This document shows, piece after piece, positions 10,466 through 63,793 of a stretch of DNA of 64,000 nucleotides; positions within the stretch are counted from its first letter, which is position 1, and each line of letters begins with the position of its first letter. The stretch comes from Cephalotus follicularis (lineage: Eukaryota > Streptophyta > Magnoliopsida > Oxalidales > Cephalotaceae). The DNA lies in contig BDDD01000711.1 in the NCBI GenBank assembly GCA_001972305.1, positions 43,424-107,423 on the forward strand. The letters run 5' to 3'. The notes beneath the pieces were generated by a model, which saw nothing but the letters and a program-made list of their open reading frames with translations, searched no databases and was not told the origin of the DNA. A program made the translations under genes and the position numbers.

Positions 10466-10514
10466 ATCATCCTGAATCAATTCATGTTGTAGCCCTCAAC
10501 GTTGACGCCAATAT

Positions 10515-25736: not shown

Positions 25737-26402
25737 ATTGGGCATGTGGAATTAGCGCCTCCCTTGCAAAATTTATGTTATGTGATATGTATGTGGCTCA
25801 GTATGACCTATGACTCGTAAATAATTTTGTGAAATGTTTCTTAAATGTTTCGAAGGTTATATGGACTTTATAAAAGTACAAATGTGATTTTATGATTATT
25901 TAATTGTTTTAATTACTTAAGATTTCTGTTATGAACCTTACTGTTTTTAAACTTATCGTTTACTGTTTTATTTCCCTTATCCGTACTGAGGTTTGCTCAG
26001 CCGCGTTTTTGTTTTCCATGCGGCAGGTTATCAGGAGCAGCGGGGGAATGTGTGAAAGAGAGATGACCACCCTATGTGTTTGGATCCCTAGGAGTGTGAT
26101 CCCTATGTTATGTCTAGTGGTCATAAACTATGATACTTATGTTTTTATGATTTAAATTTGGAACTTGGATATGTTTAAGTCTTTCCGGAATTGATTAATT
26201 GCTAAGTTTTTAATGTTTCAGTTATGATAAGACCGCCACGTTTTTGGCTAATAGAGTAATGATTTTATTAGCTATGTTATGTATATGATCAGATATGTTA
26301 TGATAGGTTCTGTATTATAACCCGTAACGACTCCCGCCGTCCGGGGGTGTTACAAACGACATGTTGAAATGATCGATATTTTGGCCTGCTAGCGTTTGAT
26401 TC

Positions 26403-26860
26403 TCATCGATGCCAATAGTGACGTTGACGTGTAAGGTTCCTACCTTAATGTGTCGACGCTAAGGGGAAGTGTTAACGCTTAAGGTTCCTACCTTAGTGTG
26501 TGGGTGTCTAGCGGTAACGTTGACGCCAATGGTACACGTTGACGCATAAGGTTCCTACCTAACGCATCAACGCTAAAGTGATGTGTTAACACGTAAGGCT
26601 TCCATGCTACACGTCGACGACGTTGATATATGTTGACGCATAAAGGACTATTCTGAGTGATAAGCATGGTATGCGCATTGATGCTTGGAGATATTATTTT
26701 GCACGTCGATGACTAGGTTATGCATTGACACCACAAGGATTGTTTATACGTTAATGCCATATATGCACATTGACACGATGGCTGCACGTTGACGCCTTTT
26801 ATGCACGTCGATGCCTTTAGGTGTTGTTTATGCATAAGTGATTGTTTAATGATTGTTTAT
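26403..26860. repeat. GTTGAC-core array with 'aaggttcctacctta' inserts
   Basis: Cores at about 26405, 26423, 26452, 26471, 26519, 26538 and 26566, then looser units to 26860. Spacings are 18, 29, 19, 48, 19 and 28. The longer steps contain the word aaggttcctacc, so phasing is less regular than in the CAGTCGACTG arrays. Confidence 0.6.
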
Positions 26861-27957: not shown

Positions 27958-28858
27958 GTGAAGCAAATAAAGGGAGAGAGATATGAGAGAGCGCCAGAAC
28001 CAGAGAGAGCGGGAGAGAGATAGCTCGCCGGAGAAGACGACGCTGGGCGAGGAGCATGACGACCTGAAGCGTACGGCGCAGGTCCATCACCCATGGTAAC
28101 CCCTCTCCTTATCTCTTTTCTTTCTTCTCTCTTCTCCCCCAACGTTTTACCGTCACTGTCATTGCCTTGCATCGCTGATTACGTCACGGGTTAGGGTCGG
28201 ACTTTGCCTGGAAGACCAGCTCTACCCACCGTGATGACGATTTTGGCGATTTCTGACCAAAAACAGGCGAGAATGGTTGACTGAGTTAACCCACCGAGCT
28301 TGACTCGCTGCCTGCTGTGACCGCCAGTTCCTTGGCGAGTCACGGTGAGTCTCGGTCTCCAATGGACTGATTGAAGGATTTTAAGGTCGGTTATGGCATT
28401 TTTGGGTGGTGACCGAAGTTGTGGACGACCAGCGAGTCAACTCAGTGAGTTGAACTCACTGCCGGCCGTGACAGGGCGTTTCAGCGCCTATTCACTTCGA
28501 GTTACGGGTGGAGACACCTTAAGCCGACTGTTTTGTGACACTTTTGTGAATTGGCCAGAATTGTGGATGTCCGGCGAGTCAACTCAGTGAGTTGACTCAC
28601 TGTCGGCTGTGACTGCGCGATTCACGGCGAGTCGCGGTTATCAATGTGTAGATCGTAACGGAATGTGTGATTGTTATTGCAGCGATGCTGAAAGAGGATT
28701 AGAGGTCTGTTAACACCAGATGGAGCTGTGATCGTGATCGCGAGTGAAGCTTAGAGGAGGAGGCAGCTAGTCGATTCCACTGCAAGTCCTCCCAACTCGC
28801 AGCTCAGTTGGTAACAGGTAGGTATACATATGCTCCAACGGTACGTGCTCAGATGATT

Positions 28859-30632
28859 ATTGGCTTGATCCCATTTGTATACGCCGGTATGGGGCGGTGG
28901 TATATGAATGGTAGATCACTAGAGTACGGTTATACTACTTTACTTGCATTCATGCATTTTGAATGGATTGTATGGACATGACTGTTCATTGATGATTGTA
29001 TGCTTAATTGATTGTTATGGTTATGCATGATTACTGATTACATGGTTTAATGAACTGCATACGGGTATAATGGACTAAATGGAGAATTGAGAGAAGTTGA
29101 GCTTCTACCTTCTCTCAATTCAAGGGTTACGATATTGGAAATGGTTTATGGGTTATGGCTATTGTATGGATTGATCGATTATGTTGCATGAGACTAAATG
29201 AGATAACCCATTCATGACCCTCATATATGTCATGAAGGTCATGAATGTTAGACCACATCATATAATGTTTACCCCGCATTGTGGGAGGGCCGATATGGAT
29301 AATGTTACACCACATCGTGGGAGGACCAATATGGATAGTGCTTGCCCCACATCGTGGAAGGACTGATATGGACGGTATGGTATGCATGGACCTACAGTAT
29401 GCACGGTGTGGTCAGTGTTATCTCGACCCTATTCGTCTACGACACTAAGAGTGCGTAGATAATGGAATGGACCTTATGGATCGCTATTGAATGTATCGTC
29501 ATCGAATCATATCGTATCGTTATGGATCGTATCGATATTGTATCATTATGGATCGTATCGTTATCGAATCGTATCGTATCGTTATCGTGTCACATCGTTA
29601 TAGATCGTATTGGTATCGTTATCGGACCAGGACCTTCGGGAACTGGGTAATAGTATCGTTATCGGACATGGACCTTCGGGAACTGGGTAATCGTATCGTT
29701 ATCGGACCAGGTCCTTCGGGAACTGGGTAATCGTACCGTTATCAGACCAGGACCTTCGGGAACTGGGTAATCGTATCGTTATCGGACCAGGACCTTCGGG
29801 AACTGAGTAATCGTATCGAATCGTTATCGAATCGTATTGTATTGTTATAGATTGTATCGTATCGTTATCGAATCGTTATGAATCGAATCGTCATGAATTG
29901 CAACCGGTTATGGACCGTTATCGGACCAGGACCTTCGGGAACTGGGTAATCGTATCGTATCATTATCGAATCGTATTGTGTTGTTATAGATTGTATGGTA
30001 TAGTTATCAAATAGTTATGAATCGAATCGTCATGAATTGCAAACGGTTATGGACCGTTATCGGCAGGACCTTCGGGAACTGGGTAATCGTATCGTATCGT
30101 TATTGAATCGTATTGTATTGTTATAGATTTTATCGTATCGTTATCGAATCGTTATGAATCGAATCGTCATGGATTGTAAACGGTTATGGACCATTATCGG
30201 ATATGGACCCTAAACGGATATGAATTGCAAACGGTTATGGACCGTTATCGGCTATGGACCGTAAATGGATATGGACCGTAAACGGTTATGGTTAATGAGG
30301 GCAATGGTTATGGCTATGGATGGATACGATATGGTTATGGACCGTATCGTTATGGTTTGTGATGGTCCTGATTGTTATGGTATGGATATGATATGGTTAC
30401 GGTAGGACCATGGTATGTATCCCCAGATGGTTGTTGTTGATCCTATTTTTATACGCCGGTATGGGACGGTTGTATACGAATGGTAAATCACTAGTGTATG
30501 TGAATCTAGGGGAATGGTTGTAGTGGGCTAGAACCTTCGGGGTCTGGTGATTGGCCTGTTAAAGAGTGATGATTGATTTGATCCCATTCCTATGCACCGG
30601 TATGGGACGGTCGTATACGACTGGTAGATCAC
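28859..30632. repeat. Three dispersed copies of a ~58-bp repeat
   Basis: Copies near 28859-28921, 30434-30492 and 30577-30632. Each reads 'gatcc(c/t)att..tat(a/g)c(g/a)ccggtatggg(g/a)cgg', then 'gtata', then 'tggtaRatcac'. They lie in the 3.5-kb LTR on either side of the minisatellite. Confidence 0.7.
29621..29820 (+). repeat. 40-bp minisatellite x5 with CTTCGG loops
   Basis: Five units starting at 29621, 29661, 29701, 29741 and 29781. Each holds CCAGGACC-TTCG-GGGAACTGG, which folds as a stem with a TTCG (UUCG) loop, plus 'taatcgtatcgtt'. Two longer diverged units follow near 29920 and 30060 inside a wider 'atcgaatcgtat' field (29490-30300). Confidence 0.85.
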
Positions 30633-31618: not shown

Positions 31619-33946
31619 TGTAACGCCCGGTATTTTCATGATTGTAATATTTCGATTTAAGATGTAATCTTAAATTTGAAATAATGAAAATGTTTGAGAT
31701 TTCGAATCTCAAAGATGTTTCCAAACCCTAAATATTGATTAGGGAAAGAAATGTGTGAGTTAAACTTGAAAACGACGCAGTTTTGGAAGAAACGCGTCGA
31801 TGTCTTTGGAAAGACGTCGACGCCTATTGGATCCGGGGTACACGTGAATGCATGGGCATGCACGTCGATATGGAGAGAAGGCATCGACACCTTCTTACAA
31901 AAAGGGGGAAAAGACATCGACGTCTAAGGAAAGACGTCGACGCCTTTGTAAAGAACATCTGTCACGATTAACACTGACAAAATGACATGCAATGGGTAAT
32001 TTTGAGGCATTATCCAGACGCCTTGACATGCACAATGGGACGTGTTGATCATGCTGGGGTGTTGCCAGGCATGCTTCAAAATGTGTCCTTGACCTAGTGC
32101 ATGCAATAGGATATACTGTCCTCACCTGCAACCTGCAGAAGGGAAGGATAGGAGCCAAAACCAGAGAGTGAGAAGGGGAGCATGAGAGTGTGTGGTTATC
32201 TGTGAAGCAAAGAGAAAAGGGGAAGGTTCCGGCCATAATAAAACACCACCTCCTTCCTCTCTCTCTCGTTAAAACACTAAAGGAAAGAAAGGAAAGAAAA
32301 CCAGTGTGAGTGAGTGTGAGGGCCACCATTGTTGAGCTGTTGGAGCTAAAGACTTGGAGCTCGTGGGTAGCAGTTGCTAAGAGGATCTTGGAGCTGCTAT
32401 GGCCAGAACTTGGGAACTCAAAGAGGTGGACTTTCCAGTTCCTAACTTGGAACAACAAGGTAGCGGAAAGTGATAAATTTATACATGCATTTTGGGTTTT
32501 AAGTTAATGGATAACATGATGAACTGCATGTTAATGGTTGAATTTTGAATTTGGACTTGTTGTGGTGTTACTGTGATATACGGAGTTAACCGTGCATGTG
32601 CGATTACATGAATATGTGAATTGGTTGTATAGAGGATGGATCTGATAATGACTTGGTGTGTTAAAACTGTGGAGAAAACGTTCTGGGTTGGATAGACATC
32701 GACGTCTACATGAAGACGTCGATGCCTTCGTGTGAAAACGAGAAAGACATCGATGCTTGAGTAAAGACATCGATGCCTTTTCTGGGCTTTATATAACAGT
32801 AATGTTATGCCTTCGTGTGTAGATGCGAAAGACATCGATGTCTTTTGGGAGACATCGACGCCTTTTCTGGGCATTGCAGAACAGTAGTGTTTACTGTTGT
32901 TGGTGAACTGCCCTTGTGATTTCATGTTTATGCATGAATTGATGTTCTGGTTATATTCTCCATTAACCAGTAGCATGCCTTACGCGTTGAGAGAGTGAGA
33001 TTCATTTACATGAAGGATTAAAAGGTCGGATTGTACCCTCTAGAATCAAGATTCGTGAACTGATACTTCCTGGCAACTTGTGAACGGAGTAATATATTTT
33101 AAACAAATATATTTGATCAAGTAATTATATTTTATTGCTTGACTTGTACTGTGCAATGCTTGTGTCTGATGGCTACTCAGCCGCTGTGCTAGTAACTGCT
33201 GTTGGTTTAGCCGCCGTGCTAAGCAACTTACGGAGGACTTGCTCCAAACCCGTTCGCAAACAGGGATGGGGTAAGAGTGCTTGACGTTGGAGCCAGGAGG
33301 TGGCGGCGGTCAGGACGACTGGACTGTCTGGTTCCTTTTGGAACATATTTACTGCTTGTGTTGAGATAACTTATGAGTTATACTTGTACTGTGAGCATGC
33401 ATATATTTTTATATATGTATATACGGAGATATATTTCTGTGAAAACTACATGCCATACTGCATCATAATGCATTCATTCATGATACGCATTATCTTTGAC
33501 CTTAAACCGTGTTTATAAGTTATTCACTTAGCCGAGTAAGGACAAAGGCTAACCCCTACTGTAACAGATTGATGGAGTGGATATGATATGGAGCATGCAA
33601 GGAGGCTTATGGTGAAGACTGAGTTGCTCCTTTTATTTTTTGTACTGAATTAATGAATATTGATCATGTTATTTGGATTATTGTAACAAAGGATATTTTG
33701 TTATCTCGTACTGTATTTATCACGCTCCGTTTTGGGCGATCGACAATGACGTGGGTTTTATATTATAAACTTGTTGGGCATCACGTAGTATGGGATGCGT
33801 GATGTATGTTTAAATTTGGCTCATTTATGTTATTGCTTCCGCTACTGAAGGTTTTTGTTTATTCGTATTATCGCATGAGCTGAATTATATATGTTGATTG
33901 CCTTACCACTTTATATGTTTTCTTGTCGTGGAAACGGGGCGTGACA
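31619..33946 (+). mobile_element. D 5' LTR (2328 bp), type B
   Basis: Starts TGTAACGCCCGG and ends CGGGGCGTGACA. Contents: an AAGACGTCGACGCC array in two clusters, the leader module (32413-32466), and the TTAGCC/GGCTAA hairpin near 33531-33557 followed by 'ctactgtaacagattg'. The first 680 bp are nearly identical to 36832-37526. Short frames inside are not genes. Confidence 0.85.
31790..32865. repeat. Paired AAGACGTCGACG units in D LTR
   Basis: Core pairs: 31796/31816, 31864/31883, 31916/31936, 32698/32718, 32749/32769 and 32834/32854, spaced 19-20 bp within each pair. Units read AAGACRTCGAYGYC. The first cluster recurs in the 3' LTR at 37010-37155. Confidence 0.75.
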
Positions 33947-33949
33947 ACG

Positions 33950-33963
33950 TGGTATCAGAGCAT
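33950..33963 (+). other. Primer-binding site of D
   Basis: TGGTATCAGAGCAT, 3 bases after the LTR end; initiator tRNA-Met type. Confidence 0.8.
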
Positions 33964-34060
33964 ATTCCATATATTCTTAGCTAGGATACTTTCCTTGGCA
34001 ATTAATGAAAATGATTTCCTAAAGTCATGACTAATCGTCACTCTTCTTATAGGAAACAAT

Positions 34061-34705
34061 ATGGACAGAAGAGGAAAAGCTAGGGCTGTTGAGGGGAGTG
34101 CTCCTCAGGGCACAAATGATGGGAGAGATCCACTGGATCGAATGGCCGACTACTTTCAATAGCAGATGGCTGTGGATGCGGCCAACATAGAATACCTGCG
34201 GCAATGGTACATAGATCATGTAAATGACCATTTCCATCAACATGTGGTTGCTAATACAGCGCGCCTGGAAGAGATGCGGCAGCTGTGTATTGAAACCCAG
34301 CAAGTTAAGCGGACTAGACCAGCTCCGTCAGAATGGCAAGATGGTGACTCTTCAACCAAGTCATCAAGGAATAGTTCTCAGCAAATAGCCGCTCAAGGGA
34401 CTCCTAGTCCAGGGAGTAAGATGAGGTTGGGAAGTTGCGTTCATTGTGGCCGCAAGAGCCATCGACCAGAGTATTGTTGGTTTAAAAATAAGTTATGCGT
34501 GAAGTGTGGAGCCTCTGACTATTTACGGAAGGATTGTCCGAGGAGACAAGGAATAACACCTACTGGACCTATGGGTAATATCGGTGCGGCACCTGGACCT
34601 TCGCAGTGGGGAGGCAAGGGCAAGGGCATCATGGGAGGTAAGATTTTTACTCCTACTTGCATCATACTTGATCATAATGCCTTTAATTGGTTGACTATGT
34701 TATAG
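34061..34705 (+). pseudogene. D gag remnant with two zinc knuckles
   Basis: Starts MDRRGKARAVEGSAPQ at 34061. A stop at about residue 34 (DYFQ then TAG) is followed by an open frame from 34166. The capsid core (WW...F..YFP region) is missing. The C-terminal part has two knuckles: CVHCGRKSHRPEYC, intact CCHC spacing, and CVKCGASDYLRKDC, where the His is Tyr. A Gly-rich tail follows. It ends at 34705 in non-family residues. Confidence 0.75.
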
Positions 34706-34904
34706 GCATAGTTAAGTGACGTTTGTGGCCAACTAATGAGTAAGGGAATGATGATTCTCAGTACCATGTTAAGGGATGGTTATACATATGCGTAGACTAG
34801 TATGGGACCACATACATACTTAGTGGACTTCTAGGTCCCGGGCAACATAATCAAAGAACATGAATTGTAACGCTTGAATAGTGATTCATGGTAATGATTT
34901 GAGG
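34706..34904. other. Deletion scar between D gag and RT
   Basis: About 200 bp with no coding match, where protease and the RT fingers should be. Nothing else identified. Confidence 0.5.
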
Positions 34905-35743
34905 GTGTTTTCCAAGCTCGATTTGGAATCGAATATCATCAGTTGAGGGTGAGGGAAGGAGATATTGAGAAGACTGCTTTCCGGACAAGATACGGTCACT
35001 ATGAGTTCCTTGTGATGCCTTTTGGTGTTACCAATGCACCGGCTGCGTTCATGTCATTGATGAACGATGTGTTTCGACCGTACCTGGACCAGTTTGTCGT
35101 TGTGTTTATTGACGACGTACTTGTATACTCAAGGAGTGAGGAAGAGCATGCTTACCACCTGAGGTTGGCTCTACAGATTCTCCGAGAGCACCAACTGTAT
35201 GCCAAATTCAGTAAGTGTGAGTTTTGGCTTGACCGTGTGATCTTTCTTGGTCACATTGTATCTGGAGAAGGTTTAGCGGTGGATCCGTCAAAGACAGAGG
35301 TGGTACGAGATTGGCCACAGCCGAGGAATGTAACGGAGGTACGCAGTTTTCTTGGCTTGGCGGGGTATTACCGAAGGTTTATCCAGAATATCTCGAGAAT
35401 AGCTGAGCCCTTCAATAGACTGGCCCAGAAGGAGACCCTGTTTGTCTGGGATGATGATTGCGAAGCTAGTTTCCGTGAACTAAAGGATCGGTTGGTTTTC
35501 GCTCCTGTCTTGGAATTAACTGAGGGTAATGAGGGCTTTGCAGTCTATAGTGATGTATCGAGTAAGGGCTTGGGCTGCGTGCTGATGCAGCGAGGAAAGG
35601 TGATCGCTTATGCTTCTAGGAAGCTGAAGCTGTATGAAGGAAACTACCCGACTCATGACCTTGAACTTGTAGCTATTATCTTCGCCCTTCAGAAGTGGAG
35701 ACACTATCTTTATGGGGCGCAGTTTGATCTTTACCGATCATAA
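34905..35743 (+). pseudogene. D reverse transcriptase and RNase H
   Basis: Begins mid-RT (VFSKLDL, then a frameshift) and is open from 34943: [21 protein letters not shown], active-site box [10 protein letters not shown] (intact FIDD), [10 protein letters not shown], then RNase H ([22 protein letters not shown]). A 2-bp deletion near 35735 shifts the frame before [12 protein letters not shown] fingers, protease and upstream parts are missing. Confidence 0.88.
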
Positions 35744-36785
35744 GAGTTTGAGGTACCTGTTCTGTCAGGGCACACTGAACATGAGGCAGCGTAGGTGGGT
35801 TATTGTTGATAGACTCACCAAATCAGCACACTTCTTGCCTACACATGTCACTGATTCTGCAAGCAAGTTGGCTCGATTATATGTGAAGGAGATTATGGAA
35901 CTGTACGGTGTTCCGGTGAGCATCGTTTGCGATAGGGATTCGATCTTTACTTCCAACTTTTGGAAGAGATTCCAGACGGCCTTCGGAACAAGATTGAATC
36001 TCAGTACTGCTTTCCACCCTCAGACAGATGGACAATCAGAGCGTACCATCCAAACCTTGGAAGATATGCTTCGGGCTTCCGTGATCGATTTTGGCGGAAC
36101 CTGGGAAGACCATATCCCTCTGATAGAGTTTTCATACAATAACAGCTATCACTAGAGTATTGGTATGGCCCCATACGAGGCACTGTATGGGAGAAAGTGT
36201 AGGTCACCCGTCTGTTGGGACGAGGTTGGTTAACGACCATTGCTTGGGTCGGATTTGGTGGAGGAGACTTCAGAGAAAGTCAGCTTCATCAAAGAAAAGT
36301 TGCTAGCAGCACAGAATCGGCAGAAGAGCTATGTCGACAGTGTGAAGAGAAGGCCTTTAACCTTCAATGTTGGAGATTACGTGTTTTTGAAGGTATCTCC
36401 GTGGAAAGGGGTACAAAGATTCGGGAAGAAGGGCAAGTTAGCGCCACGCTATATTGGTCCTTCTGAGATTCTGGAAAGAGTTGGGGAGGTAGCTTATCAG
36501 CTAGCCTTGCCTCCTACATTGTCAAGTGTACATGATATCTTTCATGTATCGATGCTACGAGGTTATATCCGAGATCCATCACATGTCTTGGATTATGACT
36601 CGGTTACGGTAAGGGATGATCTTTCTTGCGAGGAGTCACCCATGAGAATCTTGGATTGGAAGACGCAAGTATTGAGGAACCAAACCATTCCGATGGTAAA
36701 GGTTCAGTGGCAATTTCATCGGCCGGATGAAGCGTCTTGGGAACGTGAGGATGATATCCAAGAACGTTACCCGCATTTGTTTTAA
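35712..36785 (+). pseudogene. D integrase C-terminal part with chromodomain-like end
   Basis: [10 protein letters not shown] and RQRRW (RNase H end) run straight into [14 protein letters not shown], so the integrase HHCC zinc domain and the first catalytic Asp are deleted. The second Asp (VCDRDSIF) and the Glu ([11 protein letters not shown]) remain. Stops near 36153 and 36231, then an open frame from 36240: GDYVFLKVSPWKGV, GPSEILERVG, HDIFHVSMLRGY, and a chromodomain-like tail ending ERYPHLF at 36785. Confidence 0.88.
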
Positions 36786-36818
36786 GTATTGTGTTAATTT
36801 CGAGGACGAAATTTCTTG

Positions 36819-36831
36819 AAGGAGGGGTGGA
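36819..36831 (+). other. D polypurine tract
   Basis: AAGGAGGGGTGGA directly before the 3' LTR. Confidence 0.75.
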
Positions 36832-37526
36832 TGTAACGCCCGGTATTTTCATGATTGTAATATTTCGATTTAAGATGTAATCTTAAATTTGAAATAATGA
36901 AAATGTTTGAGATTTTGAACCTCAAAGATGTCTCCAAATCCTAAATATTGATTAGGGAAAGAAATGTGTGAGTTAAACTTGAAAACGGCGCAGTTTTGGA
37001 AGAAACACGTCGATGACTTGGGAAAGACGTCGACGCCTATTGGATCCGGGGTACACGTGAATGCATGGGCATGCACGTCGATATGGAGAGAAGGCATCGA
37101 CACCTTCTTACAAAAAGGGGAAAAGACATCGACGTCTAAGGAAAGACGTCGACGCCTTTGTAAAGAACATCTGTCATGATTAACACTGACAGAATGACAT
37201 GCAATGGGCAATTTTGAGGCATTATCCAGACGCCTTGACATGCACAATGGGACGTGTTGATCATGCTGGGGTGTTGCCAGGCATGCTTCAAAACGTGTCC
37301 TTGACCTAGTGCATGCAATAGGATATACTGTCCTCACCTGCAACCTGCAGAAGGGAAGGATAGGAGCCAAAACCAGAGAGTGAGAAGGGGAGCACGAGAG
37401 TGTGTGGTTATCTGTGAAGCAAAGAGAAAAGGGGAAGGTTCCTGCCATAATAAAACACCACCTCCTTCCTCTCTCTCTCGTTAAAACACTAAAGGAAAGA
37501 AAGGAAAGAAAACCATTGAGTGTGAG
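36832..37526 (+). mobile_element. D 3' LTR, first 695 bp
   Basis: TGTAACGCCCGG start, nearly identical to 31619-32300, hence a relatively young insertion. It breaks at gtgag|TGTAATACC, where A2 begins. The rest of the LTR is not found downstream. Confidence 0.85.
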
Positions 37527-38685
37527 TGTAATACCCTGTATGTTCGTAAATGTGTTTTACTGACTTTTTATGTATTTGTTTTCGGACTTTTAATTCGGTT
37601 AATTTTAAAGTCCGGTTGCCCTGTGTTTTGGGCCTATGTGAATTGGACTGACTGATACCAGTCCGAAATTGGGTATGTTATGCTATGTTGGGTTTGGGTT
37701 TTATTTATTTTATAATCCAAAATTATTTTATTAAAAACAAATTATTTATCTTTTATTTTAAAATTCTTTTTATTATTAATTCCTTATTTTCCTTTTTCCT
37801 TATTTTTCTTATTTTCTTCCTTTTTCCTTTCTTTCCTATTTTCTTCTTCCTTCCTATTTCTTTCCCCTCCTTCACCCGAAGTCACTCTTCCTCATTACTT
37901 CCACACGGAAAAAATCCATTCTTTCGTTTCTAATTTCCCACAAATCCTCCTTTCTTCCATTTGTGGGCAGATTGTGTCTCCCTTTTTCCTTTTGTGAGTG
38001 ACATTGCCATTCTATAATTGCCTTCTTCTTTTTCTGCCTTGTGCCATAGCTGAATTCTGCCTGTAAGTGTGTGTTAATCTGCTGTGGATTCATTGCATCA
38101 GATTGTCAAGGTAATCTCGGATTCTGTTTGTCCTTTGGTTGGATTTCTAATTGATTTTAAAGCTTTATGCTTTTCTCTTGGTTTTTTTCTCCTTGGTCCC
38201 CTGTGTACAGCTGATTAAACAGTGAGATTGTGGTGTTATTGCTGTGTTTTCGTGTCCTTGATACGCACTGCAGGTTAGTTAAATTCGTTTCCTCCAGTGA
38301 TGGTTTTGTTCCAATGTCATAAATTCAGTTTTTATGCTCTTAATGTCACTTGGGTTCAATTCCTATGTTAATATGATCTGCCATTGTGTTGTTAAGTCTG
38401 TTAACATGTGTAATACAACTTAGACAGGTCATAATCTAGTTTTAAAGTCTGCAAATTGATAAGGGACAGAATCTGGACACACATGTATGCATGCCTTCTT
38501 GTTTCCTCTTGGAGGCTAAGCCACTGTCAAATTGTTTCCTATGTCAATTCTGTGTTTTTATGTCACCTAAAAGTCATACATGATCATATGTTTATGTTCG
38601 TGTGTCTCTGGTATTAATGTGGTAATCATTTGAACCATTTTCAGTATTGAATTGTCCAATTTCCCACTGTTCTGTCGTCCAGAAC

Positions 38686-38892
38686 AGTTGACTGTTCCTG
38701 TGGACAGTCGGCTGGAATGGATGAGTAGCCGACTGCCATATGAACACAGTCGACTGCCTTAGGTTGAGTAGTCGATTGGTTGTATGAACCAGTCGACTGC
38801 CTGCATTTTAGTTTGAGTAGTCGATTGGACCTTATGAATAGTCGACTGCCAAGCTTCCCCAGTCGGCTGGAGCTCTGTTATAGTCGACTGTT
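38686..38892. repeat. Phased CAGTCGACTG array, A2
   Basis: Cores at 38687, 38707, 38728, 38749, 38771, 38792, 38820, 38841, 38862 and 38883. Spacings are 20, 21, 21, 22, 21, 28, 21, 21 and 21, identical to A1, including the single 28-bp step. Confidence 0.9.
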
Positions 38893-39410
38893 TTGCCCAG
38901 AAATGTACTGTTTTCAACTGTTTTGCTCCGTTTGTTCCTCGAATCGATCCGGGTCTTTTCCAAACGCTGTTAAGAGTCTGTTTAATGCTTCTGATGTGTC
39001 TTAGACTCTTATACGTATGATTTTGTATGTCTTTTAGATTGATTGTGCCTCAAGTGGAATTGTTTTTTATCGCCTATTCGTAAGTACTTTGTGAGCGCAT
39101 AAGGTACGGATTTTCTGTTCCTTGGCTATCTGATGTTTTGAACTGAAAATAGTTTTGCAATGTTTCTTCGTTTATGAAATCGATAATGATTTATGGTTTT
39201 GACACATTTTGAATATAAAGTTGGTTTGACATTTTAAATGATTCCGACTTTATACATATGATATGAAATGATACGATATGTTATGAAATGTACGCTATGA
39301 TACCGTTGTGAGCGGTTTTTCGATATGTTTTGTGAAAACATATTTTATGTGATTTTAAATTGATTTCGATCAATCAATATTTTTGAAATGAATACTGAGT
39401 ATTGTACCCA

Positions 39411-39674
39411 CCTATGGGGTGTACCATAGGCACGTCGTGGGCCTGTCACGGGGACGTGACACTTCTGTAGCGGTGTGATTAGTCTACGACGTCTCTTAGT
39501 GTATGAATAAATCCCATGAGGTGGATTTATGGATCCGCTATGTATGATAGAGGCGAATGAATCGATTCTAGTTTATGATATGTGATCTAGTGAATGATCA
39601 AATATGTGATCAGATGGTTGATCTGATATATGATATGTGAGAATTGACTGTGTAGTGCCGTACACTTCAATTCT
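39411..39674 (+). other. Five-hairpin block, A2 copy
   Basis: As at 25497, but H2 reads CACGTC (39431-39436) paired with GACGTG (39453-39458) instead of CATGTC/GACATG: both partners changed and pairing is kept. Confidence 0.75.
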
Positions 39675-40346
39675 AGTGGGCATATGGAATTATCGCCTCC
39701 CTTGCCAAATTATGTTATGTGATATGTATGTGGCTCAGTATGATTTGTGATTTATGACTTATGATTCGCAAATGATTTTATGAAATGCATCGTAAATGTT
39801 TCGAAAGTTATCTGGATTTATGAAAGTACAAATATGATTTTACGATTATGTATCTGTTTTAACTGTTTAAGATTTCCGTTACAAAGTTTATTGAAATATT
39901 ACTGTTTTTAAATTTATCGTTTACTATTTTAATTCCCTTATCCGTACTGAGGTTTGCTCAGCCGCGTTTTTTTTTGTTTCCATGCGGCAGGTTTACAGGA
40001 GCAGCGGGGGAAAGTGTGATTGAGTGATGACCACCTATGTCCTTGGATCCCTAGGAGTGTGATCCCTTGTTTTATGTCTAGTGGTCATGAACACTTTTGA
40101 GATACATATGTTTATGTTTTAATTTCGAAACTGGGTTATGTTTTAAGTTTAAGTTTATTTTTCCGCAATTGTTAAAATTGTTAAGTTTTGAACAGTTTGT
40201 TTAAGTTTCAGATATGATATGACCACCAGGTTTTCAGCTGTTAAGTAATCATATGATTAGATATGTTATGTTTATGCTCAGATAAGTAATGTTATGCATG
40301 ATATGACCCTGTGACGACTCCCGCCGTCCGGGGGTGTTACAGATTT

Positions 40347-41803: not shown

Positions 41804-43473
41804 TGTAATACCATGTTTGTTCGTATGCAAGTTTTACGAACTTTTTAATCTGTTTGTTTTCGGGCTTTTTAATTTGTGTTGTTATGAAGTCCGTTTGCCC
41901 TGTGTTGAGCCTATGTATTTTTGGGCTGACTGATACCAGCCTGAATTTTGGGTAAGTGGGCATGAATATGCTTTTTTTGGATGGGCTTATGTTTATGTCA
42001 TTTCTAATAAATTTACAATTTTAAAATGTAGTAAAACAATTTTATTTCTTTTAAAATTCTACTTCCTTTTATTTTATTTTAAAATTTCTCTTTATTTCTA
42101 TTTCTTTCCTATTTTCCTATCTCTCTCCTATCTCTTCTCCCTCTCCCGTAGGACTCTCTCTCCCAATCTCTGTCTATCTCGAAAATCTCTCCCTCTCTTA
42201 ACTCCTTACGCGTTTTCTTTTCTCTTTTCCTTATCCAAATTGGTTTCCCGATTTACTCCCTTTTCTATTTAAGTTTGTAATGTCATCGTTTTCTACCATG
42301 TCACACCCCGTTTTATTGACAACATAAAGGTCATGGCAATTTAACATAATTATTCAGCTTATGCAAATACGGTAAATTTAAAACTTTAAATACCATTAAC
42401 ATCTTGCGGAAGCATTTAAACATAAGCCGAAAGTGAACCGAATCATGCATCCCATACCACATGATTCCATCATATAACATTTTAAGTCATTGTCAACTAC
42501 CCACTAACGGAACGTGATCAAAGTCGATTAACATTATTAAAACATTGGTACAGTAATCCAAGGTACATCAGGTCTCAAGTACATTGTTTCACATTTATTT
42601 AAGTAAATAAAACTCCGTCTCCCCTCTGGTTCGGCCACGTGCGGTCGATGTCCATATCACTGCATCAATCTGTAATAGTTGGGGGGGTTAGCCTTTGTCC
42701 TCACTCGGCTAAATCATAATTGAAATTTAGGGTCAATGATAATGAATGTCATGAAGTGAATGCATTCGTGATGCAATATACAATCTATCACTGTACATAT
42801 ATACATATATATATATCTATGCCAGTATGTGCAACCATGCCAAGTGGATACAACCATCAAATCATCCATCATGTCTCAAAGGACAATCAAATCAAATCAC
42901 ATCAATTCAAATAAAATCAACTGTACGAAGAGCGCCGCCATCTCCTGGCCCCGACGTCGTACTCTTACTTCGGCCCCTGACTCCCGAGTCACGAAGCAAA
43001 GCAACGAATCAGACTCATGATGCTCGCACTCTGTGTTCAGCAATCATGGTACCCCGTGTTACTTGCACTCAGTGTTTAGTAACATTGTATTTGGGCGTCC
43101 CTAGCCATCTCCTGGCCCCTAGGTGAACATCCCCGCCAGCAGCCATCGGCGACACTCCGTCACCCCAGCCAGTACGGCATCAATCACAATCAATAAATCA
43201 ATTCAAATCAAATCATTTCCAAGTAGTTTATAAAATACTGGAAATAATACATTTATTTTAAAATGTATTGCATCTTTGAAACCATGTTTCAATCCATCGA
43301 AAATATACATTTATCAAAGTATACATTTTCATATCAAATAATGATTTGTATAAAATCATGTACACATTTCTAAAATGAATAAAACACTATAGAATCATTC
43401 GCATTTCAATCATCAACTCATTTCATATCAAAACGCAATGCAAACATATGCTTAGAATGCAAGTCAGTCCCTC

Positions 43474-43965
43474 AACAGTCGGCTGCCCCTTCATGACAGC
43501 CAGCTGTTTCCTTATGACAATCAGTTGTTTCCTTTAAACAGTCGGCTGTCCCCGATTAGGCAGTCGGCTGCCTCCCTTAGTAGTCGACTGTCTCATACTT
43601 TATAGTCGGCTGCTCGCATAGCAGTCAGCTGTCTCCTCAAGACAGTAAGCTATTCCTTGAATAGTACGTATCTTCTACATCGTCACTCAACCCAGCATTG
43701 CCACCTCAGTGAATCCGGGCAGCGTGACACGTAGATAGTTGACTGTCATCCCAAACAGTCGGCTGTGCCATCAACCAGTCGGCTGCCTTCTCTTGGCAGT
43801 CAGCTAAGCACGCAGCAGGAGAAAATCTCCATTAAAAAGCATGAACAGTCGACTGACTCCTTAGCACAGTCGGCTGTTTCCTTTGAGCAGTCGGCTGTTC
43901 GCACTGAACAGTCGACTGGTAAGCTTGGGCAGTCGGCTGTCCTCCTTGGACAGTCAGCTGGTCCT
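43474..43965. repeat. Phased CAGTCGGCTG arrays, strict 21-bp period
   Basis: Block 1 cores: 43478, 43499, 43520, 43541, 43563, 43583, 43605, 43624 and 43645 (21, 21, 21, 22, 20, 22, 19, 21). Block 2: 43738, 43758, 43778 and 43799 (20, 20, 21), then 43848, 43869, 43890, 43911, 43932 and 43953 (21 five times). Spacers of about 11-12 bp are unrelated to each other. Because the period is mostly a multiple of three, part of block 2 reads as an open frame with repeating Gln-Ser peptides (43765-44088), which I do not regard as a gene. Confidence 0.92.
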
Positions 43966-44509
43966 ATGCGCAGTGCTCAAAAGCAACAGAAAATACATGC
44001 AACCATCAATCCAAATCATATCACAATAGAGCATTTATCATTAACAACACATTTCATGCTCATATCACAGTCCATTGCATGCATTTAATTCATAAAGTCC
44101 ATTATAACGAAACTTAAATCACAATTATGAAACTTCCCCTACCTTAGAACTCCAAGTTAGGAGTTGCAATCCACCTCTTTCAGTCCAATACGAGACTTTT
44201 GAACTCCCACAGCTCGTTCAGCAACTCTAGCAAGTTTAGTTCTTGCCACTGGTTCGAGTCTCCAAGTCCTCAGCTTAACACAAAGCACCTTGGATCAATA
44301 ACACACTCACTTTCTCCTCTTTCTATCCACTCTTTTGTTCTCTCTTTTCCTCTCTGCGAAAATGGTGAAGATTGGAGAGGAAAACGTGTGTTTTTATGGA
44401 GAGAACATCTCTCTCACTTCTTCCCACATAAACACAAAAACACTCCCCTTTCTATCACGCCAGGCCTGGCAGCACTTTATGATGTCTGACGCCTGGCATT
44501 CGACTACCC

Positions 44510-44632
44510 CAACATGGCAGTCGGCTGTCTCTGCCGACAATTTCTAGCCGACTGTTCCTCATAGCAGCTGGCTGGTTCCTTCCCTTAGGGTCCAGTCGAC
44601 TGGCTCCTTATGGCAGTCGGCTGCCCGCCTAT
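44510..44632. repeat. Further CAGTCGGCTG units in the same solo LTR
   Basis: Units near 44518 (AGTCGGCTG), 44548 (AGCCGACTG), 44566 (AGCTGGCTGG), 44593 (AGTCGACTGG) and 44616 (AGTCGGCTG), less regular in spacing. Confidence 0.65.
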
Positions 44633-45434
44633 TTTCAACACACCAACACATCTTTTCTTGCAACTTTTCAACACACAAAAGAGGAAAAATCATGGTTCTC
44701 ATTAATTCAAAGCGTAATTTACATTGGAAATACAATATTACACTTTAATGAAAATCCCGGGCGTTACATACTATCTCTTCCCTTTTGTTGATGGCTGCCG
44801 AATCTGCAATTGGGAATACATTGTGCTCTTTGTGCTTCTGTTTCATCAATCAGGTTTGTTTCTCTATGGTTAAGTTTAGGATTCGTTCATTTGATATGTA
44901 TAACAATGGCAAACTTTGAATTGGTTATCCTTTTTGTTTTTCCTCTGTGAACAACCATTGTTGTCCTCTGATTTTGGTGTCTCTGCAACTGGTTTTGATA
45001 TTAATCAGGTTGGTTTTCTGTGTACTTATGCTACGGTGTTTGGTCTTGGGTTATATGCCATCCGATTCTTGCATATAGGTTGCTAGAAATGAATTTATTT
45101 TGGATCCTGCCTTCCTTATGTTCTATCAAGTAAATTTGAGTTTGTTAGCAATCTGTATGCACCTAGAGTGAGTTATGTAACTTAGTTTAATATATGACAA
45201 TGGTAATTGGACATAAAATTGTTTAGAAATATGTACGCTTGTGTTTTGGAAATCTCTCTTTTCCTTGAGTTAGCCACTGGTCTCATAAGTTATGTTAATT
45301 ATGTGTTTTCCTACTGTCCAAATGTCATATAATGTCTTATGTATATGTTCATAGGCCTCTGGTATCGAGTTATTCATGTTGAGGCAAGTCTCTGCATATA
45401 AAATGTAAAGTTTCTGCTGTTATGTCGTCCAAAA

Positions 45435-45573
45435 CAGTCGGCTGTTATGGGTTATGTAGTCGGCTGCCTTATGAAACAATCGACTACTTTGCCTTGCACA
45501 GTCGACTGGACCCCTGTCACAGTCGAATGCCTACAGTCCAGTTTGTGTAGTCGACTGGCCCTGTTGATTAGTC
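45435..45573. repeat. Phased array of A3 5' LTR, first part
   Basis: CAGTCGGCTG-type units from 45436 to the insertion point. The unit at 45569 (TTAGTC|GACTG) is cut by the second solo LTR. The other half continues at 48274 with a regenerated TAGTCGACTG. Confidence 0.8.
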
Positions 45574-48273
45574 TGTCACACCCCGTTATTCCATTACATT
45601 TAGACAACATATGTGGTGATATCAGGAATAAGTAAATAATCCAGCATTCCAATTAACAAATCAAATATATAAGCGGAAGCATTCCAAAAGCCGGATTATA
45701 TAATAAAAGTCATCCGCACGCAGCCCATACTACGTGCTCGTACAATACAAGCAATTATCCTTTTACATAAGGAAAGTAAAACAACATCACGGAGTGCGAA
45801 TCGTTCATACAAAAACAAAACGACATAAGAATAACAACCTTAATAGAAATAACAACTCTCCAAAAGCTTCAGCAGCACTTCCCGTACGTCTTCGCTTAAT
45901 CTGAAATTGTAGGGGTTAGCCGTTGTCCTCACTTGGCTAAGTAGGAAATAATGCATGATAATTGAATCTATAGATGCAGCATGTATGACATTTTATATAT
46001 AAAATAGCATTTTTAAATATTCCAATAGATAAGCAATCATGCCAAGTAGCCATAGACCGTACAATGCAAGAATACCGCACAAGGGTACAATCAATCATTA
46101 CAGTGGTTTGGGTGTCACATGTCACTAGCTCCTAGCACCAACTGTGTACCACCTATCTATCACCCTTCACTCCGAAGATGATGAATCAGGTCAATTACTA
46201 CCGGCATTAGCGGGCAGTTTAACAATCAAGATATACATTGCAGACAGTTTGGGTGGATACTCTAGCCAACTCCTAGCATATAGGACCACCTCCGTAGCCA
46301 GTGATGTCTCCTATCACTCGACTAACAGCAATAACATAGACAATCAATTCAATCAATTCAGTAGTAATATTACATATATGAATAGTATACAATATAAAAG
46401 TTGTTTTCTTTAGAAACATTTAATAATTCAGTAATCGTACATCTCATAGGAGGAAAACGATATTCAATCCAGTAACAGTACCTCACATTGGAGGAAAAAC
46501 AGTAATCACTAGGTTTCATTTGAAAATGGTAGTTGAAATCATTAATTGTGCATATAGCACTTAGTTGATTCAATCCTTTGAAAGTAATGGAATAGTAGTG
46601 TTTATGACCCTCAACTAGTATGTAAAAAGTGTAACAGTAGCATATACAGCAGATTAATAAGGCACAATAGCAATTCGAGGATTCAATAAGGTCATTAGCA
46701 TACCATAGTCATTCTTGCACAATGTTCACAAGAAGTGCATTCGTTGTTTAATTTCTAAAATGTAGTTATATAAGGCCAGGATTGACTGTTACAGTCATCC
46801 CATATGGAGGCCAGGTTAATTACATTCAATTTAAGGCCTAAACAGAACCTATATCAGAATTTTGTCCCAGGACAGTCGGCTGGTTTGATTGAGTAGTCGG
46901 CTGTTTACTCTTAACAGTCGCCTGGTTCGATTGAGTAGTCGACTGCCATGAAGAACAGTCGACTGCTTTGCCCAAAAATTGGCAGGCAGCAACAGGGTAT
47001 GTATATTCAATGTCCCAATACTAACTCAATCAACACATGCAATCAAACAGAAAATTAATCATACATGATATGCATATTATATCTTCAAAAACATGTCATT
47101 ACCCATACCTTAAACGCTATCCCAAAATCAATTTGGATTGATTTCTCTCTTTAATGTCCAAAGCTCTTTCATCAACTTAACCTTCCAATCTCAGCAGAAT
47201 TGATCTATAACAATGCATGATTGAAGGTTCAGACATTTAATCAGTAAGTTTAACTAATTATCTAGTTACAATTACTACTCCAACAGTAGTTCATCAATGA
47301 TTCATTAAGCCTCCATTTTTACATTTAACAACATCTCTCCACTATTCAACTCCAATTTCAGCAAGTACTATGTTTGCATGTTACAGAAGGTATGTATAGA
47401 TGGTGATTAGTATACATATACCTATTGACAACCATAACAGCAACTATAGTTCGAATTAGAGGCTTGCAATTTCAACTCTTATTTAAACCATTTACCCATT
47501 CCATCTCAATTCCAGAAATTATTAATCTTAATCATGTTAACAGAAGATATGGATATCTAATCCTAGTCCGTTTTCTAGATATTAACCATAAAAACATTAA
47601 GGAATTCGAATTGGTGACTTACCAGGAAGATTCAAGCTTTAAAACTACTTTGAACTCCAACTTTCTACATGCAAGCTCCAAGATAATCTTTCCTTTGATT
47701 TCTTCTCCTCAATGTTTTATAACACTCAATCAGCTCTTCACAGCTGATATAAAGGTTTTAGAGTCTTATTATTCGTTAGGATCCCATTAACTCAACCTTC
47801 CCTCTTTTCCTTCTCTCTCTCACATGCACCTCTCCTCACTCTTTTCTCTTCTGTTTTTGCAGGTTGCAGGTCTGCAAATCTTGCAGAAGGAATAGAGGAC
47901 ATGCAAGGCACTCCTCTTGCTCGTTATGGCAGTTGGTGACACGCATCCCTCATGCATGCCACGATTAGAACACTTGTCATCACTGTCTCTGCGCATGCCA
48001 GACGCCTGTTTTGTGTCACTCCAGTCGACTGTCGTCCTGTGACAGTCGACTGTCTTTTCCACGAATCAACCAGTCAACTGTTACCCTGTGACAGTCGGCT
48101 GTTTGAGCTGGTTTTAGGGTTCCTTAAGTTTGTTTTACCAATTTTGTATCTCAACCAACCCAAGCATTCACTAATCATAATTACTATGATATTTGGGCAA
48201 ATGATCCCAATTAAAATGTATATTTTATTTAAAATTGGAGCAATATACATTAATTGAAAATGCAATTATTACA
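45574..48273 (-). mobile_element. Type B solo LTR (2700 bp), perfect TSD TAGTC
   Basis: Minus strand, from TGTAATAATTGC (48273) to AACGGGGTGTGACA (45574). TAGTC lies at 45569-45573 and 48274-48278. It carries the TTAGCC/GGCTAA hairpin near 45914-45938, sequence matching window positions 1-300 (46490-46690), and CAGTCGACTG units at 46868-46965 and 48018-48105. No coding region. Confidence 0.9.
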
Positions 48274-48863
48274 TAGTCGACTGCCAAGCTTCCACAGTCG
48301 ACTAGAGCTCTGTAACAGACAGTTGTATTGTCCATGAAATTCCTGTTTTCAATTTTCTTGGTCCGTTTGCATTTCTGGTTGATCAGGGTCTATCTTAAAC
48401 ACTGTTATAAATCTGTTTTATGTCCTTAATGTTTTCAGACCCTTATATGTATAGTTTTATATCTTTTAGATTGTTGTGCATCAAAGGACAGTTAAAAATT
48501 AATCAGTCTTTTCGTAAGTCTTTCTGTAAGCTCATAAGGTACAGATATTATGCTCTTTCTAACTCTTTTCGATAAATTCAGTAACATTTTTATGAAACAT
48601 TCCCTCGGTTTTATGAATTCGGCTATGTTTTGTGATTTTAATATGTTTTGAAAATAAAGTCGGTTTTGACATTTTGCGAATTGAATGTTCCTGACTTTAT
48701 ACTTATACTATGGTATGTTATGAACTATGTTATGTTCATCTCTTTATAGTGGAAATAAATGAGTTGATGTTATGTTTCGAAAAAGGCATGTTTGCATGGA
48801 TTTTGAATTGATTATGATTAATCAATGTTTTCAGAATGATAAAATACTGAGTATTTGTACCCA

Positions 48864-54484: not shown

Positions 54485-54497
54485 AAGGGGGGGTGAA
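54485..54497 (+). other. A3 polypurine tract
   Basis: AAGGGGGGGTGAA directly before the 3' LTR. Confidence 0.75.
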
Positions 54498-55583
54498 TGT
54501 AATACCCTGTTTGTTCGTATGCAAGTTTTACGGACTTTTTAATCTGTTTGTTTTCGGGTTTTTAATTTGTGTTGTTATGAAGTCCGTTTGCCCTGTGTTG
54601 AGCCTATGTATTTTTGGGCTGACTGATACCAGCTTGAACTTTGGGTAAGTGGGTATGAATATGCTTTTTTTGGATGGGCTTATGTTTATGTCATTTCTGA
54701 TAAATTTACAATTTTAAAACGTATTAAAACAATTTTATTTCTTTTAAAATTCTATTTCCTTTTATTTTATTTTAAAATTTCTCTTTATTTATATTTCTTT
54801 CCTATTTTCCTATCCCTTCTCCCTCTCCCATAGGACTCTCTCTCCCAGACTCTATCTTTCCCGGAAATCTCTCCCTCTCTTAACTCCTTACGCGTTTTCT
54901 TTTCTCTTTTCCTTATACCATCTCTTCCCTTTTGTTGGTGGCTGCCGAATCTGCAATTGGGAATACATTGTGCTCTTTGTGCTTCTGTTTCATCAATCAG
55001 GTTTGTTTCTCTATGGTTAAGTGTAGAATTCGTTCATTTGATATGTATAACAATGGAAAACTTTGAATTGGTTGTCCTTTTCGTTTTTCCTCTGTGAACA
55101 GCCATTGTTGTCCTCTGATTTTGGTATCTCTGCAACTGGTTTTGATATTAATCAGGTTGGTTTTCTGTGTACTTATGCTACGGTGTTTGGTCTTGGGTTA
55201 TATGCCATCCGATTCTTGCATATAGGTTGCTAGATATGAATTTATTTTGGTTCCTACCTTCCTTATGTTCTGTCAAGTAAATGCTGCATTTGTTAGCAAT
55301 CTATAGGCACCTAGTGTGAGTTATGCAACTGAGTTTAATATATGACAATGGTAATTGGACATAAAATTGTTTAGAAATATGTATGCTTGTGTTTAGGAAA
55401 TCTCTCTTTTCCTTGAGTTAGCCACTGGTCTCATAAGTTATGTTAATTCTGTGTTTTCCTACTGTCTAAATGCCATATAATGTCTTATGTATATGTTCAT
55501 AGGCCTCTGGTATCGAGTTATTCATGTTTAGGCAAGTTTCTGCATATAAAATGTTAAGTTTCTACTGTTCTGTCGTCTAGAAC

Positions 55584-55790
55584 AGTCGGCTATTCTTATG
55601 GATAGTCAGCTGTTATGGGTTATGTAGTCGGCTGCCTTATGAAACAATCGACTACTTTGCCTTGCACAGTCGATTGGATCCCTGTCACAGTCGACTGCCT
55701 GCAGTCCAGTTTGTGTAGTCGACTGACCATGTTTATTAGTCGACTGCCAAGCTTCCACAGTCGACTGGAGCTCTATAACAGTCAGCTGTT
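55584..55790. repeat. Phased CAGTCGACTG array, A3 3' LTR
   Basis: Cores at 55585, 55605, 55627, 55647, 55669, 55690, 55718, 55739, 55760 and 55781. Spacings are 20, 22, 20, 22, 21, 28, 21, 21 and 21. The 28-bp step sits at the same place as in A1 and A2. Confidence 0.9.
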
Positions 55791-56327
55791 TTGTCCATGA
55801 AATTTTTGTTTTCAATTTTCTTGGTTCGTTTGCATTTCTGGTTGATCGGGGTTTGTCTTAAACACTGTTATAAATCTGTTTTATGTCCTTAATGTTTTCA
55901 GACCCTTATATGTATGGTTTTATGTCTTTTAGATTGTTGTGCATCAAAGGATAGTTAAAAATTAATCAGTCTTTTCTTAAGTCTTTTCTGTAAGCTCATA
56001 AGGTATGGATATTCTGTTCTTTGGAACTCTTTTCGATAAATTCTGTAACATTTTTATGAAACATTCCCTTGGTTTTATGAATTCGGTTATATTTTGTGAT
56101 TTTAATATGTTCTGAACATAAAGTCGATTTTGACATTTTACGAATTGAATGGTCCTGACTTTATACTTATGCTATGGTATGTTATGAACTATGTTGTGTT
56201 CATCTCTTTATAGTGGAAATAAATGAGTTGATGTTATGTTTCGAAAAAGGCATGTTTGCATGGATTTTAAATTGATTATGATTAATCAATGTTTTCATAA
56301 TGATAAAATGCTGAGTATTTGTACCCA

Positions 56328-56574
56328 CCTATGGGGCGTACCATATGCATGTAGTAGGCTTTGCACGAGGACATGACACTTCCGTAGCGGTGTGATTAGT
56401 CTACGGCGTCTCTTTATGTTATGAATAAATCCCATGAGGTGGATTTATGGATCCGTTATGTATGATAGAGGTGTATGAATCGATTATAGTATATGGAATA
56501 CATGATGAGTTATGCAATATGTGATATGATATGATATGAGAATTGACCTGTGTAGTGCAGTACACTTCAATTCT
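56328..56574 (+). other. Five-hairpin block, A3 3' LTR copy
   Basis: H1 is damaged on one side (ccatatg), H2 partly (catgta), H3-H5 retained, so this copy is decaying independently of the 5' one. Confidence 0.65.
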
Positions 56575-57173
56575 AATGGGCATGTGGAATTAGCGCCTCC
56601 CTTGCCAAATTTCTGTTGTGATATGTTATGTGGCTCAGTATGATTGTATGACTTTATGAATTTATGTTTTGAAATCTTTCGTATGTATTTCGGAAGTTAT
56701 GGGTTTGATTTCAAAGAATATTTAAACTGATTTACTGCTTAAGATTTCTGTCTCGAGATAACTTTTGAAATCTTACTGCTTTTAAATTACCGTTTATTGT
56801 ATTTACATTCTATATCCGTACTGAGGTTTGCTCAGCCACGTTTTTGTTTCCATGCGGCAAGTTATCATGAGCAACGGGGGAAAGTGTGATTTGAGAGATG
56901 ACTACCATATGTCCAGGATCCTCTAGGACGGTGATCCCAATATGTTATCTGTTAGGAGTGGTCATGAACAATAAGTTACTTTTGGTTTATGTTTTAATAA
57001 TTGACCCTTAGAACATGTTTAAGTTTTCAGTTTATGATCAGTTTTCAGTATATTACCCAGATATGTTATGTTTTGACTAATAAAGTTATGTTTATGTTCC
57101 GTTAAGTTATTCTATGTTATATTAGGTTCTGTATTATGACTCGTGACGACTCCCGCCGTCCGGGGGTGTTACA

Positions 57174-63680: not shown

Positions 63681-63793
63681 GACTGCTGGAACAACATCAA
63701 AACTTGTTTTTAAGAGCCATTCTTTATGCAACAACTTCCAACACTTCTCCAACGGATCTATTGCTTCACCAACGGCTATAAACTGAAGAATGC

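Follow-up and report, generated by a model that had tools for sequence, protein, structure and literature searches.

Palindrome arrays with a preferred 21-bp step in several groups of plant LTRs suggest a putative multimeric binding platform

A solo LTR in the window (the whole stretch of DNA analysed here, 64,000 nucleotides) carries two arrays of CAGYCGRCTG-type palindromes, which we refer to as class A; a sister motif, GCGTYRACGC, is referred to as class B. Class A arrays follow a spacing rule with a sharp 21-bp step, they occur in LTR groups that do not match one another, and between diverged copies the palindromes are better conserved than the spacers. A multimeric binding platform, suggested for the main array by the initial annotation, is the best, though putative, reading of the arrays. 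Judged from sequence, they may be cis-regulatory docking rows in LTRs that a dimeric factor of the host would read, to which we assign a probability of roughly 0.55. The solo LTR comprises:

42299-44768, minus strand: solo LTR, source of the finding; its U3 end at 44768 is TGTAACGCCCGGG
42294-42298: left target site duplication, TACCA
44769-44773: right target site duplication, TACTA, one mismatch to the left copy
43476-43960, minus strand: main palindrome array, 17 sites with at most two mismatches to CAGYCGRCTG, 19 with two three-mismatch sites in register
44497-44623, minus strand: distal palindrome array, six sites with steps of 21, 27, 20, 28 and 21 bp

The element had been taken for a solo LTR, and its boundaries bear this out: the minus-strand sequence 42299-44768 has TG...CA ends and a 5-bp target site duplication in which four of five bases are identical. 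Del and Tekay are one lineage of elements. The LTR starts on the minus strand with TGTAACGCCC, which is of the TGTAACRCCC type seen in Del/Tekay-type Ty3 chromovirus LTRs, and is 68.7% identical over 715 bp to the LTR of a Ty3 element at locus L024. It contains no open reading frame longer than 107 amino acids. The solo LTR sits inside an older LTR that belongs to a different group. A copy of this older LTR that lacks the insertion lies at 54493-57173, and the adjoining bases 42235-42298 are without counterpart there. A TATA-like box lies at position 370 of the solo LTR, preceded by the distal and followed by the main array; no such box was found in the related L024 LTR. The main array may sit downstream of the box, unlike an upstream enhancer.

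The nineteen sites of the main array were recovered, 15 of them with at most one and 17 with at most two mismatches, together with three-mismatch copies at 43518 and 43643 that lie in register. In 1000 dinucleotide shuffles of 43474-43965 a mean of 0.09 sites (maximum 2) is found at up to one mismatch and of 1.04 (maximum 5) at up to two. Five consecutive steps measure exactly 21 bp, as the sites lie at 43846, 43867, 43888, 43909, 43930 and 43951. Steps of 19, 20 and 22 bp, which had been reported as well, are present, but the array also has one step of 49 bp and one gap of 114 bp (93 bp counting the site at 43643). The distal array, in the same LTR as the main array, was absent from the initial annotation.

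The spacing was then followed through the window's own genome (1.577 Gb), scanned for exact matches with related copies included. The predicted genome-wide peak at 21 bp is present: exact CAGTCGRCTG pairs at this distance number 111,360 (55,829 + 55,531), a count that is inflated, as are the other genome-wide pair counts, because copies within one family are not independent, while the backwards control gives 325 (160 + 165). All distances from 23 to 26 bp together account for 972 pairs (486 + 486) in the whole genome. Distances of 10-19 bp account for 3,987 (1,986 + 2,001), and 94 of the first 100 listed are at 19 bp. Between 22 and 50 bp there are 78,368 + 80,187 pairs, the first 100 listed falling at 22 bp (5), 27-28 bp (17), 40-43 bp (56) and 46-50 bp (22), with none at 23-26 or 29-39 bp. 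The exact pair pattern occurs in 7 stretches of 2.9 million viral contigs, which served as a background control. The further expectation that the peak be limited to LTRs was checked on the stretches that were read; the genome-wide counts give the peak alone.

A sample of 200 kb, consisting of 20 stretches taken not at random but from every 35th contig, always at the same offset, contains 107 class A sites with at most one mismatch. Their nearest steps are 20 bp (11 cases), 21 bp (41), 22 bp (6) and 28-29 bp (8), and no step below 20 bp occurs among these 107 sites. Four of five scrambled control palindromes show no step within 130 bp in the same sample and the fifth shows one step of 13 bp. 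At least one class A site is present in 9 of the 20 stretches, and at least seven in 6. Extrapolation from 107 sites per 200 kb gives some hundreds of thousands of class A sites in the genome. In an open 6-mer scan of 264 kb, simple repeats lead in the raw number of 19-22-bp steps; when 6-mers with at least six such steps are ranked by the ratio of these steps to distances of other lengths, the top ten are all of the GTYRAC or GCCGAC type.

Besides the solo LTR, the window holds six further class A arrays that were absent from the initial annotation, one of which is interrupted by a nested solo LTR. They lie in LTRs of two groups, F1 and F3:

45574-48273, minus strand as judged from the LTR ends: second solo LTR, group F3, target site duplication TAGTC, arrays at 46873-46965 and 48022-48101
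23567-26354, plus strand: F1 LTR, Ty3 chromovirus-like copy, array at 24720-24925, left boundary approximate
37529-40341, plus strand: F1 LTR, array at 38685-38890, left boundary approximate
54493-57173, plus strand: F1 LTR, array at 55583-55788, copy of the older LTR minus both nested solo LTRs, left boundary approximate
45435-45557, plus strand: left part of an F1 array interrupted by solo LTR 45574-48273 and resuming at 48274-48304

Both solo LTRs, 42299-44768 and 45574-48273, are inside one older LTR. The second one (45569-48278 with its target site duplication) landed within a palindrome of the older array, and its TAGTC duplication is perfect.

The LTRs with class A arrays fall into three groups: F1 with the window copies, L029 and L034; F2 with the solo LTR 42299-44768, L024, L029 and L039; and F3 with the solo LTR 45574-48273 and L033. 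No blastn match of at least 80 bp was found between F1, F2 and F3. Arrays L034b and L038 match L033 in part. The element at L024 has two LTRs with arrays in both, at LTR positions matching those of the solo LTR 42299-44768, and encodes Retrotrans_gag, RVP_2 (protease), RVT_1 (reverse transcriptase), RNase H and Integrase_H2C2 (zinc domain), i.e. it is of the Ty3 type. Its chromodomain match is weak (E 2e-4, below the Pfam cut-off), and 45 bp separate the chromodomain-like frame from the 3' LTR. The F1 element in the window has matches to zinc knuckle, protease, reverse transcriptase, RNase H, integrase and SH3 and again a weak chromodomain match (E 7e-5, below the Pfam cut-off). On these domain matches, F1 and F2 appear to have Ty3 chromovirus-like coding parts; F3 is known here from solo LTRs and flanks alone, without a coding part. 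Of the ten reverse transcriptase matches with the highest scores, nine come from Tanacetum (Asteraceae) and one from Hibiscus. Frames within LTRs or on antisense strands reach 219 amino acids (L024) and 162 amino acids (F1); five frames in or near LTRs (115-219 amino acids, three antisense) were scanned with Pfam and gave no match. Among the F1 and L024 elements no gene for a putative regulator was recognised with Pfam.

Distal arrays in different LTR groups alternate between 21 and 27-29 bp, which gives a super-period of 49-50 bp. Their positions within the LTRs are:

145-262: solo LTR 42299-44768
146-267: L024
274-393: L033

The earlier conclusion that all sites lie on one face of the DNA helix is not borne out in that form: LTRs of all three groups (F1, F2 and F3) repeatedly show steps of 27-29 bp, which amount to 2.6-2.8 turns. 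A ruler of 7-7.25 bp fits the adjacent steps with a resultant of 0.80-0.82, and one of 10.5 bp with 0.74. Strict helical phasing is not established, since the 27-29-bp steps do not fit it and multiples of 7 bp fit at least as well as 10.5 bp. Runs of 21-bp steps are in phase, and whole arrays are out of phase. The steps are not those of a reading frame, as had been noted: steps of 19, 20, 22 and 28 bp break any frame, and coding periodicity was discarded on these grounds.

Class B, which shares the GTYRAC core with class A and was absent from the initial annotation, forms arrays of its own in the window:

63418-63690, plus strand: class B array with AAAGCGTCGACTCTTT and CGTCGACGCTTTA, in a Sirevirus-like LTR starting at about 63286, TATAAA at about 63777 and 63794
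10187-10545, minus strand: class B array, 9 of 16 weak-threshold sites with the core GTCAAC, TATAAA about 120 bp past the last site on the same strand
306-490: class B-like array of GGCGTYRACG, first five steps 18-19 bp
26402-26815: class B-like array, steps mainly 19 and 28 bp

Class B pairs at 10-40 bp number 10,820 genome-wide, against 8 for the control; among the first 50 listed, 36 are at 19-22 bp and none is below 19 bp. The nearest class B steps in the 264-kb sample likewise peak at 19-22 bp. At locus L032 the class B array lies between the polypurine/LTR junction and a TATAAA box, about 130-570 bp past the LTR start. We take this junction to be of the Sirevirus type, and the class B LTRs are called Sirevirus-like by LTR start, polypurine tract and TATA box. 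Class B is less palindromic than class A because many of its cores are GTCAAC in one direction (of the weak-threshold sites, 12 of 20 at L032 and 9 of 16 in the array at 10187-10545).

To describe the class A motif, 254 sites were reduced to 131 dissimilar contexts; the 254-site set includes two loci, L006 and L008, that have about 0.9 kb in common. The resulting motif reads CAGTCGACTG, with a purine-rich 5' side, a pyrimidine-rich 3' side and weak flank preferences. Flank avoidance is symmetric, with T at -1 and A at +10 each in 5% of the 131 contexts. The core is GTCGAC or GTCGGC, and most class A sites contain GTCGAC or GCCGAC. Half-sites vary in that GCC replaces GTC in one half, seldom in both. 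Beside a fixed neighbour, the genome contains 51,792 sites with no such C, 25,812 and 14,647 with one, and 674 with two, where about 7,300 double-C sites are expected. This speaks against independent halves (odds ratio 0.092 genome-wide) but is suggestive only, as the effect is weak on non-redundant sites. The 145 exact sites of the sample comprise 74 no-C, 67 one-C and 4 double-C sites (9.7 expected, p=0.014), and the 68 non-redundant exact sites 34, 32 and 2 (4.8 expected, p=0.085). Because the deficit is weak among the latter, shared ancestry may explain part of it genome-wide.

The spacers had been described as unrelated to one another, which is nearly right: in the main array the pairwise identity of the 11-bp spacers is 0.345 compared with 0.269 +/- 0.011 after shuffling, a slight excess, while that of the palindromes is 0.857. 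Conservation thus falls mainly on the palindrome, in line with the original description, and a plain tandem repeat is rejected as the whole story. A related alternative is an old minisatellite, i.e. a decayed 21-bp tandem repeat without function in which the conservation of the palindromes is only apparent. It can draw on the spacer excess just given, on the central 7 spacer bases of the whole solo LTR 42299-44768 (0.325 compared with 0.283 in shuffles, p=0.004), on 11-bp spacers that exceed shuffles in 8 of 14 arrays (p<0.05), on one F1 copy that is shorter by about one 20-bp unit, and on the shared orientation of 22 of the 23 asymmetric sites in F2/F3 LTRs. However, in 13 of the 14 arrays, several of which are related copies, the middle 7 bases of the spacers show background identity, the one exception being the solo LTR 42299-44768 itself. 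Motif and step are moreover common to F1, F2 and F3, which lack mutual blastn matches, and the interval of 23-26 bp is nearly empty genome-wide, so that we regard this explanation as highly improbable. In diverged F1 copies (four of six copy pairs) palindromes are 82-85% and spacers 66-70% identical; the two closest pairs, with 92 versus 85% and 94 versus 94%, show little or no excess. The 11-bp spacer excess fits flank preferences plus some old duplication. Tandem duplication probably built part of the arrays, because of the weak spacer similarity, the spacer excess in 8 of 14 arrays and the same-way asymmetric sites.

Hairpins in LTR transcripts could feed or resist small-RNA silencing, as proposed for the palindromes of maize Sireviruses. 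The arrays do fold better than shuffles on both strands (z of -5.8 sense and -11.5 antisense for the main array, -8.3 sense for an F1 copy), and palindrome-rich parts of Sirevirus LTRs are small-RNA hotspots according to the available portions of PMC5311732 and PMC10760457. But the G-U-compatible form is sense in F1 (6 of 8 asymmetric sites, including L034a) and antisense in F2/F3 (22 of 23), the sense strand folds less well than the antisense strand in both solo LTRs but better in three F1 copies, and pairing offers no reason for an exact 21-bp step. RNA structure is the weaker explanation compared with a cis-regulatory array, and we think it distinctly unlikely. It is also unlikely that the arrays serve as a host silencing dock, where a plant repressor or methylation-guiding factor reads sites that the elements cannot shed. 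Each CAGTCGACTG site offers one CG and two CHG methylation contexts and the CpG-decay-like form CAGCTGACTG makes up 14 of the 254 sites, because of which the arrays may be methylated; sites that purely invite silencing should, however, vanish from active lineages, and several LTR groups retain them. Stress factors of the DREB/CBF (AP2/ERF) type, whose DRE/CRT core is RYCGAC, could read GTCGAC or GCCGAC, neither of which is present in the rare double-C form GCCGGC. Most class A sites contain this core, the double-C count (674 versus about 7,300) is as such a reader would predict, and a machine-learning study names DREB1D sites as one of the features linked with plant LTRs (PMC11656987, available part). 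Against this, a monomeric AP2 site has no need of both palindrome ends, yet conservation extends to the outer bases of either half, the match is limited to the class A core since class B has GTTGAC and GTTAAC instead, and a full-text literature search returned no paper joining GTCGAC with DREB and CBF; such factors are thus a rather unlikely answer. A reader encoded by the elements themselves (Gag, integrase or an unrecognised protein) would resemble VANC of VANDAL transposons. There is a precedent for a transposon protein that binds motif arrays in noncoding transposon parts (PMC5735166, in the portion available), and some frames within the LTRs or close to them are unassigned. Yet Pfam returned only gag, protease, reverse transcriptase, RNase H, integrase, SH3 and chromodomain parts in F1 and L024, and related cores occur in Ty1- and Ty3-type elements despite their different proteins, which makes an element-encoded reader very unlikely.

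For the preferred reading, docking rows for a host dimer, the following mechanism seems the most likely. Each palindrome, CAGTCGACTG and its variants, would be the probable binding site of a homodimeric DNA-binding protein encoded by the host. Adjacent dimers could come no nearer than about 19-20 bp; 21 bp would be the favoured distance and 27-29 bp a second permitted one. We infer that a row of dimers binds cooperatively, and this joint binding could increase transcription from the LTR or keep the LTR accessible, so that the row would act as an LTR switch or an anti-silencing platform. The GTYRAC core would be used in this way by two Ty3 chromovirus-like LTR groups, by a third group and, in the form of the sister motif, by Sirevirus-like Ty1 LTRs. 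As a more tentative extension, it is possible that a single host protein family of GTYRAC-core dimers with a 21-bp (and 28-bp) ruler is involved, and that Ty3 Del/Tekay and Ty1 Sirevirus elements converged on this shared switch, the flanks CA...TG and GC...GC being read by paralogues.

The closest known kind of sequence are the RM boxes of Sireviruses, described in the available parts of Bousios et al. 2010 (PMC2829016) as high-copy palindromes with dyad symmetry that cluster in LTRs in at least eight copies and whose motif varies between elements. The same parts call RM boxes Sirevirus-specific, with a CGG-CCG core except in one element, place them upstream of the TATA box with clusters that border a CpG island, and contain no step rule, unlike the sharp 21-bp step found here. 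The Vitis RM, CGGTCGACCG, has a GTCGAC core like our arrays (PMC2829016, same parts). The sites in the solo LTR resemble RM boxes in being palindromic and in numbering at least eight (17 in the main and 6 in the distal array), and the class B array of L032 is similarly placed, ahead of the TATA box of a Sirevirus-like LTR. The sites in the solo LTR differ from RM boxes in that the core is GTCGAC or GTCGGC instead of CGG-CCG and in that they are found in Ty3 Del/Tekay-like LTRs instead of Ty1/copia Sireviruses.

VANDALs are Mutator-like DNA transposons. Their anti-silencing by VANC involves dense short motifs in noncoding parts of the elements, in repeat arrays and varying between related families, as far as the available text of Hosaka et al. 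2017 (PMC5735166) and of PMC10398659 goes; the terms "palindrom", "spac", "interval" and "period" are absent from PMC5735166. VANC targets may be seen as the closest functional analogy, and the arrays likewise consist of dense short motifs in noncoding parts of transposable elements. In contrast to VANDALs, where the transposon encodes VANC, the present elements are LTR retrotransposons, and the Pfam matches of F1 and L024 include no VANC-type domain. In Tnt1, repeated enhancer boxes, host-factor sites in the LTR, drive transcription. To our knowledge no genome-wide palindrome ruler is known for Tnt1 or ONSEN. Repeated host-factor sites in the LTR, as proposed for our arrays, would be a feature in common with the Tnt1 boxes and with the heat-shock elements in the LTR of ONSEN, which is named in the part of PMC11656987 available. 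In sorghum and maize, the U3 att that Del carries most often is TGTAACACCC (PMC4029996, accessible part), and the LTR start TGTAACGCCC resembles it; the words "palindrom", "tandem repeat" and "gtcgac" are absent from PMC4029996.

A full-text literature search, covering titles and abstract openings with subscription papers mostly outside, returned no Ty3 array of palindromes 21 bp apart. Palindromic boxes in Sirevirus LTRs are already known; what appears to be new is the sharp spacing, the Ty3 hosts and a core common to Ty1 and Ty3. The arrays bear on the open question of why the genome of a plant becomes filled by a few LTR lineages. That a strictly spaced cis-signal is kept amid diverging sequence, with a core common to Ty1- and Ty3-type LTRs, points to one host pathway on which the elements may depend. 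The array is a ready bait for isolating the factor and, if the factor is found, the geometry of about 19 bp as minimum, 21 bp as optimum and 28 bp as second mode constitutes a direct structural prediction.

Other features were seen in and next to the window. At 31619-37529 lies an LTR element from a different family, in which GACGTCGACGCC sites occur only here and there and class A arrays are absent, and L040, which adjoins the right end of the window, is a long run of N. Compound tandem repeats of ATCGTATCG-like units extend over 29476-30399; among them a unit of 139 bp is present about three times. Palindromes of the GTYRAC type (GAGTCGACTC and the like) also occur as 13-bp pairs at 7058-7080, 13011-13033 and 28578-28600, a step unlike that of classes A and B.
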